In this document: positions 9,218 through 31,129 of the stretch, piece after piece
Layout of the letters: every line of letters starts with the position of its first letter
Position numbering within the stretch: position 1 is the first letter of the stretch
NCBI GenBank assembly: GCA_024692825.1
Contig: JAILMB010000176.1
Location: forward strand, 1 to 42,789
Origin: Lachnospiraceae bacterium
GTDB lineage: Bacteria; Bacillota; Clostridia; Lachnospirales; Lachnospiraceae
Length of the DNA: 42,789 nt
Direction: 5' to 3'
Notes under the pieces: generated by a model
What the model was told of the DNA's origin: nothing
The model's database searches: none
Seen by the model: the letters and a program-made list of their open reading frames with translations, nothing else
Translations under genes and position numbers: made by a program

Positions 9218-9246
9218 TTGAATTATAAAACTAAATAGTTTATAAT
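9218..9246 (+). promoter_or_regulatory. Sigma-A-type promoter for the 9305-16146 cassette
   Basis: TTGAAT (9218-9223) - 17 nt - TATAAT (9241-9246). Confidence 0.65.
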
Positions 9247-9304: not shown

Positions 9305-12300
9305 TTGCGTAAACGTATTTGGCGAATGTCAGAGGATAAATTCGATGACATTGCCCCCATCATTGAATTTCATAATGATAAACTAGAACTGTTTGGCTTT
9401 GAAGAAGAGAATTTTGAAAGTTTTTTTGATATACATAGCGTAAATGATGTTCGTGTCCGAGGAATGGTATATTCTTCTAATCCATATGTCGTAGTATTAA
9501 ACCCGCAGTTTGACGATGTTGATGTAAAGATTCGATTTAAAACTACCCATAACGGATTTCGAGCAGGAGATGAGTTAAAGGGAGAGTTTTATGTAACAGC
9601 AAATCAAGTAGTTAAGGTTCTTCCTTATACCATTTCATTCGATAAAAAGTATCCCATAGTAAATGATATGGAAATCAGAAGTTTGAAGGATTTTGCTCTT
9701 TTGGCAAAGGACAATTTCACCGAAGCTCTTCAGTTGTTTTCCACAAACAAATTGGATATGATCATGAAAAACGAGAGCATGAAGAATCGTCTGTACTATG
9801 GTGGGTTTAAATCCACTAGTATTTCGGCGTTGCATCTTGAGGAGTTTTTAGTAGCAGTAAAACAAAAAGACCGCTGTCGTTTTGATGTGAAGGAAGATAG
9901 CCTTAGTTTTTATAACATCAAAGAAAATCAAAAAGAAAGCATTCATATATCAAAGAATACTTGGGGCTATGTAGAGTTTCGTGTTACCTGTGATGCAGAT
10001 TTTATTACCATAGAAAAAGAACATCTAAATTCAGATTTCTTCCTTGGTAATAATCTGGAGTTGAATTTTTATATTCATAAAGAACGCCTTCATTCTGGAA
10101 TCAATGAAGCAAAAATTGTATTTGAAGGGTTGGACAATCGAAAAGAAATATCCCTTGTTTGCTCCTTATACGATAAGGATGCCCATCGAAATGATCAGAT
10201 GATTTCCGAAAAGAAGGATCGTTTCGAGTTATCCCGTCTCTATGTGGATTATCGTTTAAAGAAGATGACCACAGGGGATTGGACCACAAAATCCATCGAA
10301 TTATTAGATCAGTTAATTGAGCTTCATCCAACGGATTATATGTATCCTCTTCAAAAGGCACAGGCTTTGATCGTCAATAAACAGCGTCAAGATGCCCTTT
10401 GGATGATTACGGATTTAAAGCGGGATATTGAGGATAAAAAGAGTGTCGAGTGGGCTTATTTGTTGTACCTTTGTACCTTGTTAGAACAAGAGGACAATTA
10501 CGTTAACAAACTGACAGAAGAGATAGAATATATCTTTAAAGAACACCCGGATGACGTTAGGGTTTTTTGGTTTTTACTCTTTTTACGTGAAGCTTATATT
10601 AAGGATTCAAGAAGAAAGCTCTATGCCATTAAACAGTGGGTTGATGCAGGCTGTCACAGTCCATATTTATACATTGAAGCCTACCAGATATTTTTACAGG
10701 ATCCTATTCTTCTAACAGAGTTAAATGGATTCTCCCTAAAAATATTAAACTGGGCTGCAAAACATGGACAGGTTTCTGTGAATTTAGCAGTGAGATTTCA
10801 GGAACTTTTGCCGGAAGAAAAACAGTATAGCGAGCTAGTCTTTACCTTAGCTTGCCGAATTTATGAAAGATATCCGGAGAAAGAACTTTTATTCTCTATT
10901 ATGTCTTATTTGTTAAAGAACAATAAGGTAGGGGAAAAGTATTTCAAATGGTATGCAAAGGCTGTGGATAAGGAGCTAAAGCTGACAGGTTTATTTGAAG
11001 CATATATTTTATCCCTGCCTGAAAATTATGGAGAGAGACTTCCTGAAATTGTCACCCTGTTCTTCCGATATGAGAATCGTTTGCCAGTGGATAAAAAGGC
11101 AATGATTTACGCCAATGTGATTAATTACAAGAAGAATAACATTCATTTGTATGAGCAGTATTTGCCTCAGATTCAAAGATTTTCATTAGAGCAGATGCAT
11201 CTTGGTCGAATGAATGATGATCTGGCTACCTGTTATCAGGATATGCTTGAGGCTGGCTTGATTGACGAAGAAATTGCAACGGATTTATCAAAACTTGTGT
11301 ATACGAAACGATTTGTTTGCCTTCGAAATGACATTAAACGAATTGTTGTCTTCGAAGAGATGTTCCAACGTCCAAGAATTTCAAATGTAAAAAATGGAAT
11401 TGCATATTTTACAGCATTAACAGAGAACTACGTTGTATTTTTAGAGACCTTTGATGGAAATTACATTACAGACCAACAGGGATATTACATTGATGAGATG
11501 ATGAAAAAAGATGCCTTCATTGGAAAGCTGAATTATCTTTCAAATTATGCGATGTACTATTTCCTTGCTGGATTTGATCAGGTTTCAAATGTAGAGGATA
11601 TCAATCAAAAGCAGTTAGGAAAAATCAAAGACTTTTTATACAATGATGAACTTTCTCTTTCTTATAAGAGAAAGAAGTTAAACTTTATTTCATCCCTACT
11701 TCGAGAACATGAGAGGGAAGATTTACTGGTGAAATTTTTGGTGGACTACAAGGAGTATCGAAATCTTGATTCCAATACTGCTGCCCATATTATAGATTTA
11801 TTAATTGTTTCCGATGATTATATGACCGCTTATGAAATGATGGGAATTTACAATGGGTTACTAGTGCCGGCAAAATCTCTTCTTCGTTTGTGTAATTACA
11901 TGATTATGGAAATCGGCGATCAGGCAGAGGACTTTTTGATTTCCCTACTTGCTTATTTGATGAAACAGTATTTATTTACAGATGAGAGTATTGAGTATCT
12001 TTGCAATTATTTCGTAGGACCTACAGATGATATGTTATCCCTATGGAAGTTTGCGGAGGCCAGAGGATTTTCTACAGGTGCACTTGAAGAGCGAATTCTT
12101 ACACAGATGCTATACTCTGATGATGTACGTTTAGAGTCAGGAGAAATCTTTGATTCCTACATGAAAAAACGTGTATCACCAATGATTGTGGAAGCTTATT
12201 TGACCTATTGGTCAAGGATATATATTTGCGACAAGAGTGAAGTTCCAGAGCAAATCTTTCAACGGATTTATTTGATGTTTGATCAAAAACGACCTATGAA

Positions 12301-12865
12301 TAATAGTTTAAGGATTGGCTTGTTAAAATACTTATGCACCAAGCCTCAGCTAGAAGAAAGAGAGTATAAGGTCTTAGACTTTTTGCTTCGAGATTGTCTG
12401 TCGAAGAATATTTACTTTGAATTCTATCGTCATATGGATGAAAATCTTTTGATTAAATATCATTTATATGACAAACAGTTTGTAGAATTTCGAGGTACAA
12501 AGAATCAGAATATCACCATGTCTTATGTTATGAATTCTTCCAGAGAAGAATCGGAACGTATGATGGAAATGTACGATGGAATCTATGTAAAACAATTTGT
12601 TTTGTTCTTTGGAGATGTGGTGCGTTATGAGATTATCGACTCTGATAATAATGATGTTTTAGTTGAGGATGAACTGACTTATCAGGAAGTGATTGAACGA
12701 GAAAAACAATCACGATTTGGTATGTTAAATCAGATTAAGAGCGACTTTGTATATAAGAATGAAAAAGAGCTCTTAAAAGATTTGAAGTTTTATGAAGGAT
12801 TGGATGTTACCACAAGAAATATCTTTAAGATAATACATAGTACAGAGGGTATGAAGGAGAATTAG
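9305..12865 (+). CDS. Very large conserved protein (DUF5717-like): N-terminal beta-rich domains plus long alpha-helical repeat region
   Basis: 1186-aa ORF; TTG start with AGGAG at 9293-9297; two beta-rich segments at N-terminus, then TPR-like helical repeats; DUF5717 label is from memory, not a search. Confidence 0.8.
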   Translation: MRKRIWRMSEDKFDDIAPIIEFHNDKLELFGFEEENFESFFDIHSVNDVRVRGMVYSSNPYVVVLNPQFDDVDVKIRFKTTHNGFRAGDELKGEFYVTANQVVKVLPYTISFDKKYPIVNDMEIRSLKDFALLAKDNFTEALQLFSTNKLDMIMKNESMKNRLYYGGFKSTSISALHLEEFLVAVKQKDRCRFDVKEDSLSFYNIKENQKESIHISKNTWGYVEFRVTCDADFITIEKEHLNSDFFLGNNLELNFYIHKERLHSGINEAKIVFEGLDNRKEISLVCSLYDKDAHRNDQMISEKKDRFELSRLYVDYRLKKMTTGDWTTKSIELLDQLIELHPTDYMYPLQKAQALIVNKQRQDALWMITDLKRDIEDKKSVEWAYLLYLCTLLEQEDNYVNKLTEEIEYIFKEHPDDVRVFWFLLFLREAYIKDSRRKLYAIKQWVDAGCHSPYLYIEAYQIFLQDPILLTELNGFSLKILNWAAKHGQVSVNLAVRFQELLPEEKQYSELVFTLACRIYERYPEKELLFSIMSYLLKNNKVGEKYFKWYAKAVDKELKLTGLFEAYILSLPENYGERLPEIVTLFFRYENRLPVDKKAMIYANVINYKKNNIHLYEQYLPQIQRFSLEQMHLGRMNDDLATCYQDMLEAGLIDEEIATDLSKLVYTKRFVCLRNDIKRIVVFEEMFQRPRISNVKNGIAYFTALTENYVVFLETFDGNYITDQQGYYIDEMMKKDAFIGKLNYLSNYAMYYFLAGFDQVSNVEDINQKQLGKIKDFLYNDELSLSYKRKKLNFISSLLREHEREDLLVKFLVDYKEYRNLDSNTAAHIIDLLIVSDDYMTAYEMMGIYNGLLVPAKSLLRLCNYMIMEIGDQAEDFLISLLAYLMKQYLFTDESIEYLCNYFVGPTDDMLSLWKFAEARGFSTGALEERILTQMLYSDDVRLESGEIFDSYMKKRVSPMIVEAYLTYWSRIYICDKSEVPEQIFQRIYLMFDQKRPMNNSLRIGLLKYLCTKPQLEEREYKVLDFLLRDCLSKNIYFEFYRHMDENLLIKYHLYDKQFVEFRGTKNQNITMSYVMNSSREESERMMEMYDGIYVKQFVLFFGDVVRYEIIDSDNNDVLVEDELTYQEVIEREKQSRFGMLNQIKSDFVYKNEKELLKDLKFYEGLDVTTRNIFKIIHSTEGMKEN

Positions 12866-12867
12866 AG

Positions 12868-14118
12868 TTGGCTGATTTTGTTGCTTCAGGAGTTTATTTT
12901 GGTCTCGATATTACAGAAAAATATGCCCTGATTAGTTATTACAAACAAAATATGGAAGAACCGGAAACCATTAGTACTGTTGTGGGATCTGAAATGTTTC
13001 AAATACCGTTGTATCTATCAAAGCGCCATGGAGTAGGTCAGTGGTACATTGGAAATGAAGCACGACGTCAGGTGCAATTAAATGCTGCTGAAGGAGTGGA
13101 TCACTTGCTAAAAAGAGCCCTTCACAGAGAAAACATTTGGGTAGATACCCAGGAGTACCAGGCCCTGGATTTATTCATTATTTATTTACGAAAAATCCTT
13201 ACCTTGCCAGGTCAATACTGTGGAAATTCCAGATTGGAAAAGCTGGTAATTACCGTTCCGAATCTGGATATGGAATATATGGAGTTTTTGGCCGTGGTTT
13301 GTAATCGATTGGGACTGGATTCCTCCAAGGTATTGTTTATTGATCGAGGAGAAAGCTTTTATTACTATTCCCTGAATCAAAGGGCAGATGTGTTTTATAA
13401 CGATGTCATGTTATTTGATATAGAAGACAATCAATTAACTGGCTGTAAGCTTCATAGAAATGAGGATACGACCCCTCAGCTGATTAAACTAGAACCAGCA
13501 AATTATGGACCTTTAATTGATAATAAGGATATGAATTTTTTAAAGGTTTTAGAATCTTCCTTTGAAGGAAATCAGATTTCCTCTGTCTTTTTGACAGGAG
13601 ATGGGTTTGATGGAGATTGGATGAAAGCATCCTTGGCGTTTTTATGTCACAACAGACGAGTATTTGCCGGAAAGAATCTTTACTCAAAGGGGGCCTGCTA
13701 CGCTGGCTTTGTAAAGGATGGAAATAAGCCCTGGCCATTTGTGTTTATGGGAGATCAGGAATTAAAGGTAAACCTGTCCCTTAAGGTGTTAAAGCAAAAT
13801 GAGATGCAGTTTATTTCTCTTTTAGATGCCGGGGACAACTGGTTTGAATCTGAGTTTTCCTGTGAAGTAATATTAGATGGTACAAAGGAAATTGAGTTTT
13901 GGATTCAAAGACCGGAAAAAAGACAGGCTACAGTGGAAGTATTAGAATTAAACGATCTTCCTGATAGGGAAAACCGGACTACAAGACTTCGAATTACCGC
14001 CAAACCAATTTCCGATAAAGACATTAAAATTATTATTCGGGATTTAGGATTTGGTGATATTGTTCCTTCTTCGAACAAGGTGTGGGAACATGAATTATCC
14101 ATAGTGGTACAGGAGTAG
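12868..14118 (+). CDS. Hsp70/actin-fold-like protein with degenerate nucleotide motifs (DUF5716-like)
   Basis: Order of DnaK-like segments: YFGLDITEKYAL, LVITVPNLDMEYMEFLAVVCNRLGLDSSKVLFIDRGESFYYYSLNQ, DVMLFDIEDNQLTG, SVFLTGDGFDGDWM, then a beta-rich C-terminal ~130 aa; TTG start with AAGGAG 8 nt upstream. Confidence 0.75.
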   Translation: MADFVASGVYFGLDITEKYALISYYKQNMEEPETISTVVGSEMFQIPLYLSKRHGVGQWYIGNEARRQVQLNAAEGVDHLLKRALHRENIWVDTQEYQALDLFIIYLRKILTLPGQYCGNSRLEKLVITVPNLDMEYMEFLAVVCNRLGLDSSKVLFIDRGESFYYYSLNQRADVFYNDVMLFDIEDNQLTGCKLHRNEDTTPQLIKLEPANYGPLIDNKDMNFLKVLESSFEGNQISSVFLTGDGFDGDWMKASLAFLCHNRRVFAGKNLYSKGACYAGFVKDGNKPWPFVFMGDQELKVNLSLKVLKQNEMQFISLLDAGDNWFESEFSCEVILDGTKEIEFWIQRPEKRQATVEVLELNDLPDRENRTTRLRITAKPISDKDIKIIIRDLGFGDIVPSSNKVWEHELSIVVQE

Positions 14119-14120
14119 AT

Positions 14121-14948
14121 ATGGGTGAATTAATATATTGTCGAAAACCGATAGCAGCGAATCCTTTTTACATTGATGAGGTAGGATTAAACGTATATTC
14201 TTTAGAGGAGTTATCCTATTTTATTTTTCATAATCCATATCTTTTGGATACATCCCTTTGCAGTATGGATTTGATTCAATGGATTATGAAGGAATTAGAT
14301 GAAAAAGATGTTGCAAATCAATTGAAGGAGCTTTTAGCAGAAAATGCACCCTTTCACATGTTTGTGGGAAGACTCTTAAGCTCTTGTGGTTATTTGACTC
14401 AGGCGGAAATCAGACAAACCATGGAGCTGGTTGCTTTTATTGAAAATAAAAGCGAAGGGGAACGGAAAAAGATCCGAGCAGATCGGTTAATGGAAAAAAA
14501 TAAAATCGAAGATGCCATTTATGAATATGAAAATATTCTATTGGATACAAAGGACTTATCCAATGTGTTAATTGGGGATATTTATCACAATCTTGGAACG
14601 GCCTATGCGAGACTTTTCTTTTTCCAGCAGGCCATAACAAATTTTGAAAAGGCCTATTCCTATAATCAGAGAAAAGACAGTTTGAAGTCCATGTTTTATG
14701 CCATTCGTTGTAACAGAAATGAGCTGCAATTTGAGTCAGCAGTTCAAAAATACAATATTTCGGAAGAAGAGGCAGAGCGCTATAAGACAGAGGTGACAGA
14801 GGCCAGTACCTGTCAGGAGATTACTGCCTATGGAAAACAAATGGATGAACTTCGTTCCAATTACAGTTCAGAAGAACTATACGAAGAACATTTAAATGAA
14901 ATGATTTTGGATATACAATCGAAATACAATAGTATGTGTAGAATGTAA
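14121..14948 (+). CDS. TPR-like helical protein
   Basis: GDIYHNLGTAYARLFFFQQAITNFEKAYSYN TPR-type repeat; AGGAG upstream; 2 nt after previous stop. Confidence 0.75.
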   Translation: MGELIYCRKPIAANPFYIDEVGLNVYSLEELSYFIFHNPYLLDTSLCSMDLIQWIMKELDEKDVANQLKELLAENAPFHMFVGRLLSSCGYLTQAEIRQTMELVAFIENKSEGERKKIRADRLMEKNKIEDAIYEYENILLDTKDLSNVLIGDIYHNLGTAYARLFFFQQAITNFEKAYSYNQRKDSLKSMFYAIRCNRNELQFESAVQKYNISEEEAERYKTEVTEASTCQEITAYGKQMDELRSNYSSEELYEEHLNEMILDIQSKYNSMCRM

Positions 14949-14961
14949 TTGAGGAAAGCAG

Positions 14962-16146
14962 ATGTTTTTTAAGAAGAAGCAAAATAAAAAAGAACAACTG
15001 GATTTGTCCTTTGAAAAAGTAGTTTCTGAGATTCAAAAAATTGAAGATTGGGACAATCCGAAGAAAATCGAACATTATATTTTGGATTCTTGTGAACACA
15101 TAATTGCTACCACAAAAGAGATTGAATCTCTAAAGGCGGAGTATCGGGTTCTTACGTCATATCTTGAAGATATTGATAAGCTTCGCAAACTTCCCAAAAA
15201 AGAATTCGGTGAGATTTCTCTGGTGGCAAAAAATATAGAGGATTTAGAAAAATCACAAAAGCTTTTTAAATCTACAGAGCCGAAGTTAAATGAAGAGACC
15301 TTTGTGCTGATGTCGGAGAATGAAGATCAGATTCCCGATACGATTTTAAGAATGCAAAGTAATGAGAAATATCAGGCCACAGTAGAAAAGAACATGAAGA
15401 TGTTAGAGGCGGAAAAGAGTGAATACGAGATTGAACGAAATGAGATTCTTCATTCCAACAAACTCATTCGACGTTTGTCTGTATTGATTTTGATTGCTTT
15501 TGCTTCCTTTTTGGTTTTGGCCTTTGCTCTAAAGTCATCGGTCGAGATGGATATCGGAATGTTTTTAGTGACCATTTTATTCATTGGTGCCCTTGGAGTA
15601 TTTATCATTTTTTTGATTCATTCCAAGAATATTTCAAGAAATCGAGTATTGGTTCGGGAAATTAATAAAAATATTTCTCTTCTAAACGTGGTACGTATGA
15701 AATATGCCAATGTAACAAAGGCCTTGGAGTTTGAAAAAGAGCGTTATAATGTGACAAATTCCTATGAGTTAAATTATATCTGGGAAGCATATTTAGATAT
15801 GGTAAGAGCCCAGGAACAGTTTATTCAGGACAATGATGACTTTGAATACTTTTCAAAACGATTGATGCGAATGTTAAAAAAGCTGGAACTTTATGATGAA
15901 AAGATTTGGTTAAATCAGATCTCAGCGTTGGTACACAGTGATGTCATGAATGAAGTTAATCACGATTTGGTGAAGCGCCGTCAAAAAATTCGTGATCAGA
16001 TAGCTGAAAATACGAAATCTGTAAAGTCAGAGCGTGATGAAATTGACCGATTGATGAAGATTCATAATTACTATGTTCCGGAAATTTTAGAAATTATCAC
16101 TTCAGTAGATCGTTTGTGTGGACTGAAAAAACCGACTGTGGTATAA
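14962..16146 (+). CDS. Coiled-coil membrane protein with central two-TM hairpin
   Basis: LSVLILIAFASFLVLAFAL and IGMFLVTILFIGALGVFIIFLI hydrophobic segments flanked by long charged helical regions. Confidence 0.75.
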   Translation: MFFKKKQNKKEQLDLSFEKVVSEIQKIEDWDNPKKIEHYILDSCEHIIATTKEIESLKAEYRVLTSYLEDIDKLRKLPKKEFGEISLVAKNIEDLEKSQKLFKSTEPKLNEETFVLMSENEDQIPDTILRMQSNEKYQATVEKNMKMLEAEKSEYEIERNEILHSNKLIRRLSVLILIAFASFLVLAFALKSSVEMDIGMFLVTILFIGALGVFIIFLIHSKNISRNRVLVREINKNISLLNVVRMKYANVTKALEFEKERYNVTNSYELNYIWEAYLDMVRAQEQFIQDNDDFEYFSKRLMRMLKKLELYDEKIWLNQISALVHSDVMNEVNHDLVKRRQKIRDQIAENTKSVKSERDEIDRLMKIHNYYVPEILEIITSVDRLCGLKKPTVV

Positions 16147-16147
16147 T
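16119..16147 (+). promoter_or_regulatory. Putative promoter for gltX
   Basis: Extended -10 TGGTATAAT (TATAAT 16142-16147) containing the upstream TAA stop; weak -35 TGGACT 17 nt upstream. Confidence 0.45.
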
Positions 16148-16182
16148 TTCGGTTTGGATTAATGAAGAAGGAGTTAATGGAA

Positions 16183-17634
16183 ATGAAAATCAGAACCAGA
16201 TATGCACCGTCTCCAACAGGACGTATGCATGTAGGAAACTTAAGAACTGCATTATATGCATATTTAATAGCAAAACATGAAGGAGGAGATTTCATCCTTC
16301 GTATTGAAGATACAGATCAGGAACGTTATGTAGAAGGTGCCGTTGAGATTATTTATCGTACCTTACAGGATACCGGATTAATTCATGACGAAGGTCCTGA
16401 CAAAGATGGTGGCGTAGGCCCTTATGTTCAGAGTGAGCGCCAAAACCAGGGTATTTACTTAGAATATGCAAAGAAGCTCATTGAAAAAGGTGAAGCATAT
16501 TACTGTTTCTGTGATCAGGAGCGTTTAGAATCTTTAAAGACAGAGGTTGTAGATGGAAAAGTAATTTCTATCTATGATAAGCATTGCCTCTCTTTATCAA
16601 AAGAAGAAGTGGAAAAGAATTTAGCAGAAGGAAAGCCTTATGTTATTCGACAGAACAATCCTAGAGAAGGAAAGACTTCTTTTGAAGATGAGATTTATGG
16701 AACCATCGAAGTAGATAACTCAGAACTTGATGATATGATTTTAATTAAGTCTGATGGATATCCTACCTACAACTTTGCAAATGTAGTAGATGATCATTTG
16801 ATGGGCATAACACACGTTGTTCGAGGAAATGAATATTTATCTTCCTCACCAAAGTACAATCGTTTATACGAAGCGTTTGGATGGGATGTACCTGTTTATA
16901 TTCACTGTCCTTTGATTACAAATGAAGAGCATCAGAAGCTTTCAAAGCGTTCTGGTCATTCATCCTTTGAAGACTTAATTGATCAGGGATTTGTAAAAGA
17001 GGCAGTTGTTAACTTTGTAGCACTATTAGGATGGAGCCCTGCAGATAATCAGGAGATTATGTCCTTGGAAGAGTTGGTAAAATCCTTTGACTATCACCAT
17101 ATTAACAAGTCACCTGCAGTGTTTGATATGGTAAAACTTCGTTGGATGAATGGTGAATACATTAAGGCAATGGATTTTGATACCTTCTATGAGATGGCAG
17201 AGCCATACTTAAAGGAAGTAATCCATAAAGATTTGGATTTGAAAAAAATTGCTGCTATGGTTCAAACTCGAATTGAAACATTCTTAGATATCAAAGATCA
17301 CGTAGATTTCTTTGAAGAATTACCTGAGTATGACACTGAGATGTACTGCCATAAAAAGATGAAAACCAACAAGGAAACTTCACTTTCCGTATTGAATGAA
17401 GTTCTTCCAATGTTAGAAAAGTTAGAAGATTATTCCAATGATTCATTATTTACATCTTTAAAGGCTTTTGCTACAGAACACGAGTATAAGAATGGATATG
17501 TTTTATGGCCACTTCGTACCGCTGTTTCAGGAAAGCAAAATACTCCTGGTGGAGCCACTGAATTAATGGAACTTCTTGGAAAAGAAGAGTCCATTGCCCG
17601 CATTAAAAAGGGTATTGAATTATTAAGCAAATAA
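16183..17634 (+). CDS. gltX: Glutamyl-tRNA synthetase (class I, GluRS)
   Basis: [29 protein letters not shown]-type motif, KLSKRSG KMSKS-type motif; start at 16183 or 16162. Confidence 0.97.
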
Positions 17635-19773: not shown

Positions 19774-19803
19774 TTATTCGATTTGGCTGAAAAGAGGACA
19801 TTT

Positions 19804-21654
19804 ATGGCAGTAAAAGTAACAAAGGGAAATTTCAAAGAATACGGAGCAGTGAAAAAAGGAAAGGAAGTAACCTTTACCTTTGTGGCACCCAAGCTAAAAG
19901 AATCAACAATTCTCTTATTTGATAAAGAGACTTTGAAATTGAAGCATAAGATAACCGTCCCTTGCGAGTATCGTATAGGGAAAGTCTTTTCCGTTACGAT
20001 TTTTGGATATAAGTGGAATCAACTTTGCTATTTATTACAATGTGAAAATGAGGTTTTCCTGGATTCCTATGCAAAAAGCATTGTGGGTCGTGAAAAATGG
20101 ATGGATGAAAACCGATTCAAAAAAGACTATAAGGTTTATGGTGGATTTGTAGAAGAAGAGTACGCCTGGAAGGTTGAAAAACAAAGTTACATTCCATCAA
20201 AAGACATGATTCTATATAAACTTCACATGCGTGGGTTCACTATGGATCACAGGAGAAGAGCGGGAGAAAAAGGAAATTATAAAGGACTGATTTCCTTGCT
20301 GCCTGAGCTTTGTGATTTAGGTGTTACATCTTTAGAATTTCTGCCGCTATACGAATTTGAAGAGATTCGTTATAAGTCTAGTCAGGTAGTGGAAAGCTCA
20401 AAGAAAACAAGACGTGTATATGAGATGCCCTATGGAACCAATTATTGGGGCTATGGAGAAGGAAATTACTTTGCACCAAAGGCATCTTACTTTGGAGGAA
20501 AAGATGCATCCCTTCATATGAAGGAAATGGTGGATGCCATTCATGAACATCACATGGAAATCATTATGGAAATCTCCTTTGGTGTGGATGCTACATCTGA
20601 TTTTATCCGGGATGTTTTAATGTTTTGGATGGAGGAATACCATATTGACGGCTTTCATTTATTAGGTGCAGCACTTCCGGTAGAGCGTATTGTATCGAAT
20701 CCTTATTTTGCAGATACAAAGATTTTCTATGATTGCTTTACTCAGGAGTTGTTATTATCAGAAGATGATGAGAAACATCTATTTGTATACAATGATGACT
20801 TCTTTTATCCTTTAAGACGATTACAACATCATATGGATGGCAGTATTTCTGATTTTGCAGATCAGCTTCGTCGTCAGGGAGAACATTTTGGTTTTGTAAA
20901 TTATGCAGCATCCAATACGGGATTCTGCCTGTTAGATGCTTATAGTTACGGAGAAAAGCACAACCTCGACAATGGGGAAGATAACACCGATGGAAGTAAT
21001 TACAACTGCAGTCACAACCATGGGGTAGAAGGACCAACAAAGAAGTCGAGCATTAATAAAATCCGATTAATGAATGCGAGATGTGCCATTACTACCGCAT
21101 TACTGGCTCAGGGAATTCCTATGATATTAGCAGGTGATGAGATAAATAATACCAATTTTGGAAATAACAATCCCTATTGCCAGGACAATGAAATTGGCTG
21201 GTCTTTGTTTCCAAAAAGAAAATCAGCTGTTGAATTTCGAGAGTATGTAAAACAGATAATTGCTTTTCGAAAGGAACATGGAGTCCTTCATTTGCCAACT
21301 CCAATGCAGATGAATGACTATATGCATACCGGTATGCCGGATGTGTCTTATCATGGAAAAGAACCATGGATTATGGGGATTGGACCGGAAAAAAAGGCCA
21401 TAGGAATTCTATATAACGGAGAATACTCACCTTCTGATAATAAAGAAGATGTGATGTTATTATATAATTTCTATTACGATAGTGAGGTGTTTGCAGCACC
21501 TAAATTACCGGGAAATAAAAAATGGTATTTTGTTACAAATACCGGACAAACAAAGTTCGAACCGTCAAGTGAGCCTCTTGAAAATCAGTTAGAGGTTACT
21601 GTACCCGGAGGAACGGTTACGATTTTGGTTGGAAAGGAAACTTCAAATGAGTAA
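19804..21654 (+). CDS. GlgX/isoamylase-like GH13 family protein, probably catalytically degenerate
   Basis: GH13-type barrel segments (YGTNYWGYGEGNYFAPKASY; YHIDGFHLLGAA; LDAYSYGEKHNLDNGEDNTDGSNYNCSHNHGVEGPT; GIPMILAGDEINNTNFGNNNPYCQDNEIGW); ATG 19804 behind AGAGGA. Confidence 0.88.
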   Translation: MAVKVTKGNFKEYGAVKKGKEVTFTFVAPKLKESTILLFDKETLKLKHKITVPCEYRIGKVFSVTIFGYKWNQLCYLLQCENEVFLDSYAKSIVGREKWMDENRFKKDYKVYGGFVEEEYAWKVEKQSYIPSKDMILYKLHMRGFTMDHRRRAGEKGNYKGLISLLPELCDLGVTSLEFLPLYEFEEIRYKSSQVVESSKKTRRVYEMPYGTNYWGYGEGNYFAPKASYFGGKDASLHMKEMVDAIHEHHMEIIMEISFGVDATSDFIRDVLMFWMEEYHIDGFHLLGAALPVERIVSNPYFADTKIFYDCFTQELLLSEDDEKHLFVYNDDFFYPLRRLQHHMDGSISDFADQLRRQGEHFGFVNYAASNTGFCLLDAYSYGEKHNLDNGEDNTDGSNYNCSHNHGVEGPTKKSSINKIRLMNARCAITTALLAQGIPMILAGDEINNTNFGNNNPYCQDNEIGWSLFPKRKSAVEFREYVKQIIAFRKEHGVLHLPTPMQMNDYMHTGMPDVSYHGKEPWIMGIGPEKKAIGILYNGEYSPSDNKEDVMLLYNFYYDSEVFAAPKLPGNKKWYFVTNTGQTKFEPSSEPLENQLEVTVPGGTVTILVGKETSNE

Positions 21655-30406: not shown

Positions 30407-31129
30407 ATGGCCAGTGCAATTGAAGATATTATTGATGAGCTTGAAGAGTATATTGACAGCTGTAAACCATCGTCTTTTTTCTCTGATTCTAAAATAACAG
30501 TGAATCGTGATGATATTGAAGGCTTGTTAGAAGAACTTAGAAGTAAGACTCCGGAAGAGATTCGTAGATATCAAAAGATTATCAGTAATAAAGAAGCAAT
30601 TCTAGCAGATGCTAGAGCGAAAGCAGATCAGATTATTGCAGAAGCACAGATTACGACAAACGAATTAGTATCTGAGCATCAGATTATGCAACAGGCATAT
30701 GCCCAGGCAAATGAAGTGGTTATGATTGCTACCAAGCAGGCGCAGGAAATGCTTGATTCAGCAACGAAAGATGCCAACGATATCCGCACCGGTGCCATTG
30801 CTTATACAGATCAGTTATTAAAGAGTGTACAGGATGTTTTGACAAGCTCCATCGATACGACAAGAAGTCGAAATGAATCTTACTTAAAGACTATGCAGGG
30901 CTATCTTGATGTTGTAGTTGCAAATCGTACAGAACTTGCTCCAGAAACAGAAGCGCCAAAGGAACAGCCTAAAAAGATGTCTCCTCAGCCAAAACAGCCT
31001 GAGAAGCCTATAGCACAAAAAGAAGAACCGAAAGTGGAAGATGTAAAGAAGACGGAAGTGACCGGTACTACTTCAGAAGAAGCACAAGCGGTGTTAAACA
31101 TTCCCGAATCTTTCTTTAATAAAGAGTAA
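30407..31129 (+). CDS. Coiled-coil protein resembling stalk subunits of F/V-type ATPases or DivIVA-like proteins; function unknown
   Basis: Ala/Gln/Glu-rich helical region (ILADARAKADQIIAEAQITTNELVSEHQ…) and Pro/Glu/Lys-rich tail; no catalytic motif. Confidence 0.65.
   Translation: MASAIEDIIDELEEYIDSCKPSSFFSDSKITVNRDDIEGLLEELRSKTPEEIRRYQKIISNKEAILADARAKADQIIAEAQITTNELVSEHQIMQQAYAQANEVVMIATKQAQEMLDSATKDANDIRTGAIAYTDQLLKSVQDVLTSSIDTTRSRNESYLKTMQGYLDVVVANRTELAPETEAPKEQPKKMSPQPKQPEKPIAQKEEPKVEDVKKTEVTGTTSEEAQAVLNIPESFFNKE

Follow-up and report, generated by a model that had tools for sequence, protein, structure and literature searches.

In Hsp70 proteins the nucleotide cleft is closed by subdomain IIB, on which GrpE-type factors act. 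The Lachnospiraceae, the family from which the present locus comes, are common in the gut and the rumen. Two described systems lie closest to this locus: yeast Ssz1, a non-hydrolysing, lid-less Hsp70 that still binds ATP (PMC7083937), and the GTPase-centred GAP1-N2 systems of Firmicutes and Actinobacteria, which contain HSP70, GrpE and FNIII-TPR proteins and, in some cases, a second, truncated Hsp70 (eLife 2020, PMC7159879). The Pfam families DUF5716 and DUF5717, of which the products of genes B and A described below are members, carry no function, and the literature searched held no account of either family, nor of a set of Hsp70, GrpE, VWA and TPR proteins in Lachnospiraceae; a single paper contains the DUF term and, judging by its title, concerns something else. 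Relative to the papers searched, the Hsp70 origin of DUF5716, its operon context and its reduction are new.

The four genes and their products

The window, i.e. the whole 42,789-nucleotide stretch of DNA analysed here, belongs to a fragmented genome assembly that is 83% complete. An earlier note on this DNA had described four same-strand open reading frames (ORFs) at 9305-16146 (1186, 416, 275 and 394 residues), separated by 2, 2 and 13 nt, each with a plausible SD; the ORF coordinates confirm this layout, and SD-like motifs are present 5' of A (AGGAG), B (AAGGAG), C (AGGAG) and D (GAGGAAAG). The features are as follows.

9218-9246, + strand: promoter-like -35/-10 (TTGAAT-17-TATAAT) 5' of gene A; consensus match, conserved in two congeners
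9305-12865, + strand: gene A, 1186 aa, TTG start
12868-14118, + strand: gene B, 416 aa, TTG start
14121-14948, + strand: gene C, 275 aa, ATG start
14962-16146, + strand: gene D, 394 aa, ATG start
16119-16147, + strand: promoter-like site overlapping the 3' end of D, also in congener L068

The TTG start of gene A is likewise conserved in two congeners. Promoter-like consensus matches show no enrichment across the region overall; the second site, which overlaps the end of D, suggests that gltX has its own promoter, and it probably serves that gene. According to the ORF list gltX (16162-17634) begins 15 nt 3' of D, with a likelier ATG slightly further in. Comparison of A-D with their counterparts in two congeners gives dN values of 0.08-0.30 against dS of at least 2.3 or saturated, with dN/dS of 0.07-0.10 where computable. 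Since the lengths of all four proteins are maintained among relatives and dN lies far below dS, A-D are real, constrained genes. Elsewhere in the window, Pfam offers nothing convincing for a 623-residue protein (19783-21654), whose best match is a weak one to alpha-amylase (E 4e-5); a 240-residue protein (30407-31129) resembles nothing beyond ATP synthase B and coiled coils of the HrpE/FliH type, and these weakly (E ~1e-3).

Pfam searches, structure models and hydrophobic segments bear out the domain guesses of the earlier note (DUF5716/DUF5717, a degenerate Hsp70, TPR, a coiled-coil hairpin). The product of gene A exceeds curated cut-offs for PF18984 (residues 1-869, E 1.7e-222, 741 bits) and PF18983 (residues 875-1174, E 1.8e-79, 268 bits), so that DUF5717_N and DUF5717 cover its whole length. 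Its AF2 model has beta domains at ~27-290, a helical solenoid at 295-1050 with a beta insert at 667-731, and a C-terminal beta domain at 1057-1125 followed by end helices; the confidence values (pLDDT 86.9, but pTM 0.58) indicate more confidence in the individual domains than in how they are arranged. The closest Foldseek matches are chains of the ciliary central apparatus and TPR/PPR helical repeats, with the CEP192 SPD-2 domain ranking lower. On the basis of these matches, the model suggests that A consists of Ig-like domains of the ASH/SPD-2 kind and a helical solenoid.

The product of gene B exceeds the cut-off for PF18980 (DUF5716_C; residues 125-411, E 6.7e-104, 347 bits). A PDB search with the single B sequence gave no match; the B family profile succeeded, matching DnaK with E 9e-7, and the AF2 model of B (pLDDT 91.9) has DnaK as its best Foldseek match (E 3e-19), among matches that include DnaK, BiP, Ssz1 and Hsp110. 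B is thus a member of the Hsp70 superfamily by fold and descent, comprising a nucleotide-binding domain (NBD) and SBD-beta, but it lacks the catalytic residues, IIB and the helical lid of canonical Hsp70s. With B aligned to the DnaK of the window's own genome, the catalytic Lys and the catalytic Glu are each present in 0/45 B sequences and the phosphate-loop Thr in 2/45. Subdomain IIB is reduced to 18-27 residues in 44 family copies of B, versus 82 in DnaK, a loss that makes nucleotide binding by B unlikely. The lid (SBD-alpha) is gone, with a median of 4 aligned residues and no helix after residue 283 in the model. SBD-beta, by contrast, is the most length-constant part of the protein (83-85 residues in 45/45 copies), and within its conserved D-L-G-F-G motif the D-G-G residues do not vary among the 41 aligned copies.

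The resemblance to Ssz1, in the lid-less SBD-beta and the lost ATPase function (PMC7083937) and in the Foldseek matches to Ssz1 structures, raises the question of whether the locus serves the housekeeping DnaK as a co-chaperone platform, as in yeast RAC, where Ssz1 hands nascent chains on to Ssb, the active Hsp70. The window's genome, with one true DnaK and one GrpE, has a single such set to be served. However, Pfam detects no J-domain in A-D or in the scanned cluster proteins of two genomes from other families (G030 and G027), and no ribosome-binding feature was seen, so we regard a RAC-like role as improbable.

The product of gene C matches TPR_2 (Pfam, E 2.4e-5), has a conserved N-terminal region, and is the orthologue of a 385-393 residue TPR protein in the extended clusters described below. 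The product of gene D has no significant Pfam family; it is a coiled coil with a central two-helix membrane hairpin (~172-190 and ~201-219), and exactly two hydrophobic segments occur at the same central position in 32/32 D homologues.

Conservation of A-B-C and the optional status of D

DUF5716 is present in one copy in each of the 72/72 same-family genomes sampled (25 and 47 further), and the unmatched genomes listed in the larger survey all belong to other families. No DUF5716 was found outside the order in the class sample, in which the order itself is thinly represented. With simple ORF calling, A-B-C are contiguous on one strand at 42/45 loci. Two of the exceptions, apparent gaps at L066 (B) and L135 (C), are ORF-caller artefacts and the third is a contig ending before A, so A-B-C agree in 44/44 loci where they are visible. 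The ORF calls followed a longest-first rule, several of the genomes are incomplete, and scoring a gene as absent depends on profile sensitivity. A contig scan for relatives returned three close relatives only.

Across these 44 loci the gaps within A-B-C are a few nucleotides, while protein identities fall to ~20-25%, and an order of A, pseudo-Hsp70 and TPR protein is also common to the extended form of the locus. Although D is clearly separable, such retention of order makes it very hard to credit that these are unrelated genes that are neighbours by chance. The earlier proposal of a four-gene cassette therefore stands in part: A-B-C are co-conserved in the same order family-wide, so the refuting outcome named in that note, genes not conserved together, does not arise for these three, but a tight unit that includes D is not supported, D being absent from some genomes and located at a separate locus in others.

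Among the 42 loci with contiguous A-B-C, D adjoins C in 28, and it was not found in 15 family genomes that carry A-B-C. It also occurs in 16 of 23 control genomes of the order, 13 of these coming from the 20 that lack a DUF5716 match, and in every family checked except those of G027 and G030 it lies apart from the extended operon. We considered D as a marker of the system and rejected it, given that it is common in DUF5716-negative genomes of the order and missing from 15 family genomes; D is best called a recruited, optional (facultative) member. In regions from other families (L168-L180), valS lies directly downstream of D in 6/13, with no need for A-B-C nearby.

A family-type DUF5716 (E 3.9e-94) was also encountered at G486:C40:2962-3861, in a genome of family f8; the sampled f8 genomes G031 and G350 have no match, and the G486 copy is either a transfer or a misplaced contig. 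In a phage collection, three records cover at least 80% of B; two of them, L181 and L182 (MT835719.1 and MT835486.1), are filed as unverified bacteriophage clones and are pieces of bacterial chromosome carrying A-B-C-D, one of them with valS. A plasmid search gave no matches.

These distribution data bear on whether the locus is a conflict or defence system akin to the GAP1-N2 systems, which centre on a GTPase and draw in HSP70, GrpE and FNIII-TPR proteins (PMC7159879). The part list is similar and also comes from Firmicutes (Hsp70s, GrpE, an Ig-like and TPR protein). Against this, the locus is single-copy and universal in the family rather than patchy; plasmid matches are lacking and the phage-collection records examined are bacterial contigs; no window protein has a PADLOC match; and neither a GAP1-N2 nor a GTPase domain is found by Pfam in the cassette or in the scanned G030 and G027 cluster proteins, a scan that took in at most a minority of the relatives' flanking genes. 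A role in conflict is accordingly highly improbable.

The extended operon and the direction of change

A larger Hsp70/GrpE/Hsp70-VWA operon exists, of which the window's locus is a reduced version; the earlier note had overlooked this. The extended locus, seen in other families of the order, reads A1-A2-E(Hsp70)-F(GrpE)-G1-G2(Hsp70)-H(Hsp70-VWA)-C. All scored catalytic residues (K, E and the phosphate-loop T) are present in E (19/19), G2 (25/25) and H (18/18), i.e. in 62/62 sequences; H has a VWA domain after its Hsp70 part, and F a C-terminal GrpE domain. G1 is a catalytically dead Hsp70 (Lys 0/25, Glu 4/25, loop Thr 0/25) that has kept IIB. B and G1 are homologous, with an hhalign probability of 100% over 423 columns, and they fall on the same side of a supported branch in a midpoint-rooted tree with long branches.

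Family-wide HSP70 counts are ambiguous owing to other Hsp70 paralogues, and a GrpE-fusion profile was therefore used to survey losses. By this profile F is missing from 80/80 family genomes and from 148 class genomes; its sole matches there, at 26-34 bits and in short frames, are to the GrpE domain and are taken to be the housekeeping GrpE. In G027, a genome of family f4, E, F, G2 and H are all present together with a B-like protein retaining 71 residues of IIB. The ValS tree, which is midpoint-rooted without an outgroup and has long branches, places this genome as sister to the window's family, with 100/99 on the joining branch. Because this sister keeps the whole set and IIB, the window's family has probably lost IIB along with the GrpE partner and the ATP-driven parts; the simplest reading of the sequences is that E, F, G2, H and IIB were lost after the split from G027. 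As GrpE acts on IIB, the exchange-factor partner and its contact site would have vanished together. At a further locus (L064, genome G039), A1-A2-G1 stand alone, followed by a WecG/TagA glycosyltransferase gene, YitT and secA, and E, F, G2 and H are not at that locus; G039 is possibly a second, independent reduction.

Proposed mechanism and comparison with known systems

Taking the observed identities, orthology, conservation and loss of catalytic residues and IIB together, we propose that A-B-C, with D in many lineages, form one complex that descends by reduction from a dedicated machine with several Hsp70s, and that in this complex the dead B acts as a peptide or partner clamp on an A/C scaffold. 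We put the probability of this reading at slightly under one half (roughly 0.45). The ancestral machine would have comprised three ATPase-competent Hsp70s and an exchange factor with a GrpE domain, together with the scaffold protein A, the TPR protein C and one dead Hsp70, of which B, A and C would be the parts remaining in the window's family. B would no longer cycle with ATP nor respond to GrpE, and would instead be a fixed, nucleotide-independent module on a helical scaffold formed by A and C, its conserved SBD-beta serving as a constitutive clamp for a peptide, client or partner; D, where present, would hold the assembly at the membrane. Synteny suggests that A, B and C interact, and the conservation of SBD-beta could reflect a fixed protein contact rather than peptide binding.

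The same parts can be read as a purely architectural complex, in which B binds no client and A, B and C hold a cytoplasmic or membrane-proximal scaffold, e.g. in envelope growth or division. The absence of catalysis, IIB and lid from B, the large solenoid with Ig-like domains in A and the possible membrane anchor that D offers in many genomes would all suit such a role, as would the occurrence of the system in every family genome, which in itself implies that it is probably housekeeping. The length of SBD-beta, steadier than that of any other part of B, the ATP-driven, chaperone-like nature of the ancestral system and the loss of D from many genomes argue the other way, and we hold the architectural reading to be possible but unlikely. 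Returning to the clamp on an A/C scaffold, it is unlikely, though possible, that the locus represents a categorically new kind of machine, a nucleotide-independent and often membrane-tethered pseudo-Hsp70 scaffold that arose by stripping the ATPases off a multi-Hsp70 operon, with its dead subunit and scaffolds alone retained, and is found in every examined family genome.

The analysis gives family-wide genes that bear DUF names, or none, a starting point for annotation. It also sets out an evolutionary series that begins with an active multi-Hsp70/GrpE operon and ends with a set keeping only the dead Hsp70, and makes testable the idea of a pseudo-Hsp70 as the functional core of a complex.

With respect to the GAP1-N2 systems, the locus and its extended relatives have in common the combination of Hsp70, GrpE and Ig-like/TPR proteins; in contrast, the window's set is a vertically inherited core gene set with no detected GTPase or GAP1-N2 domain. 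Yeast Ssz1 in RAC is similar to B in being non-hydrolysing, in having no lid while keeping SBD-beta, and, as proposed for B, in working with partner proteins, but Ssz1 binds ATP whereas B, a bacterial protein, lacks IIB, the partners are unrelated, and no J-protein was found. The canonical DnaK/Hsp70 and GrpE system shares with B its fold (NBD and SBD-beta) and with the extended clusters their three Hsp70s with ATPase motifs and their GrpE domain. It differs in that B is without catalytic residues, IIB and lid, that no J-domain was found in the cassette or the scanned G030 and G027 cluster proteins, and that the window's system has dedicated TPR and Ig-like/solenoid partners.
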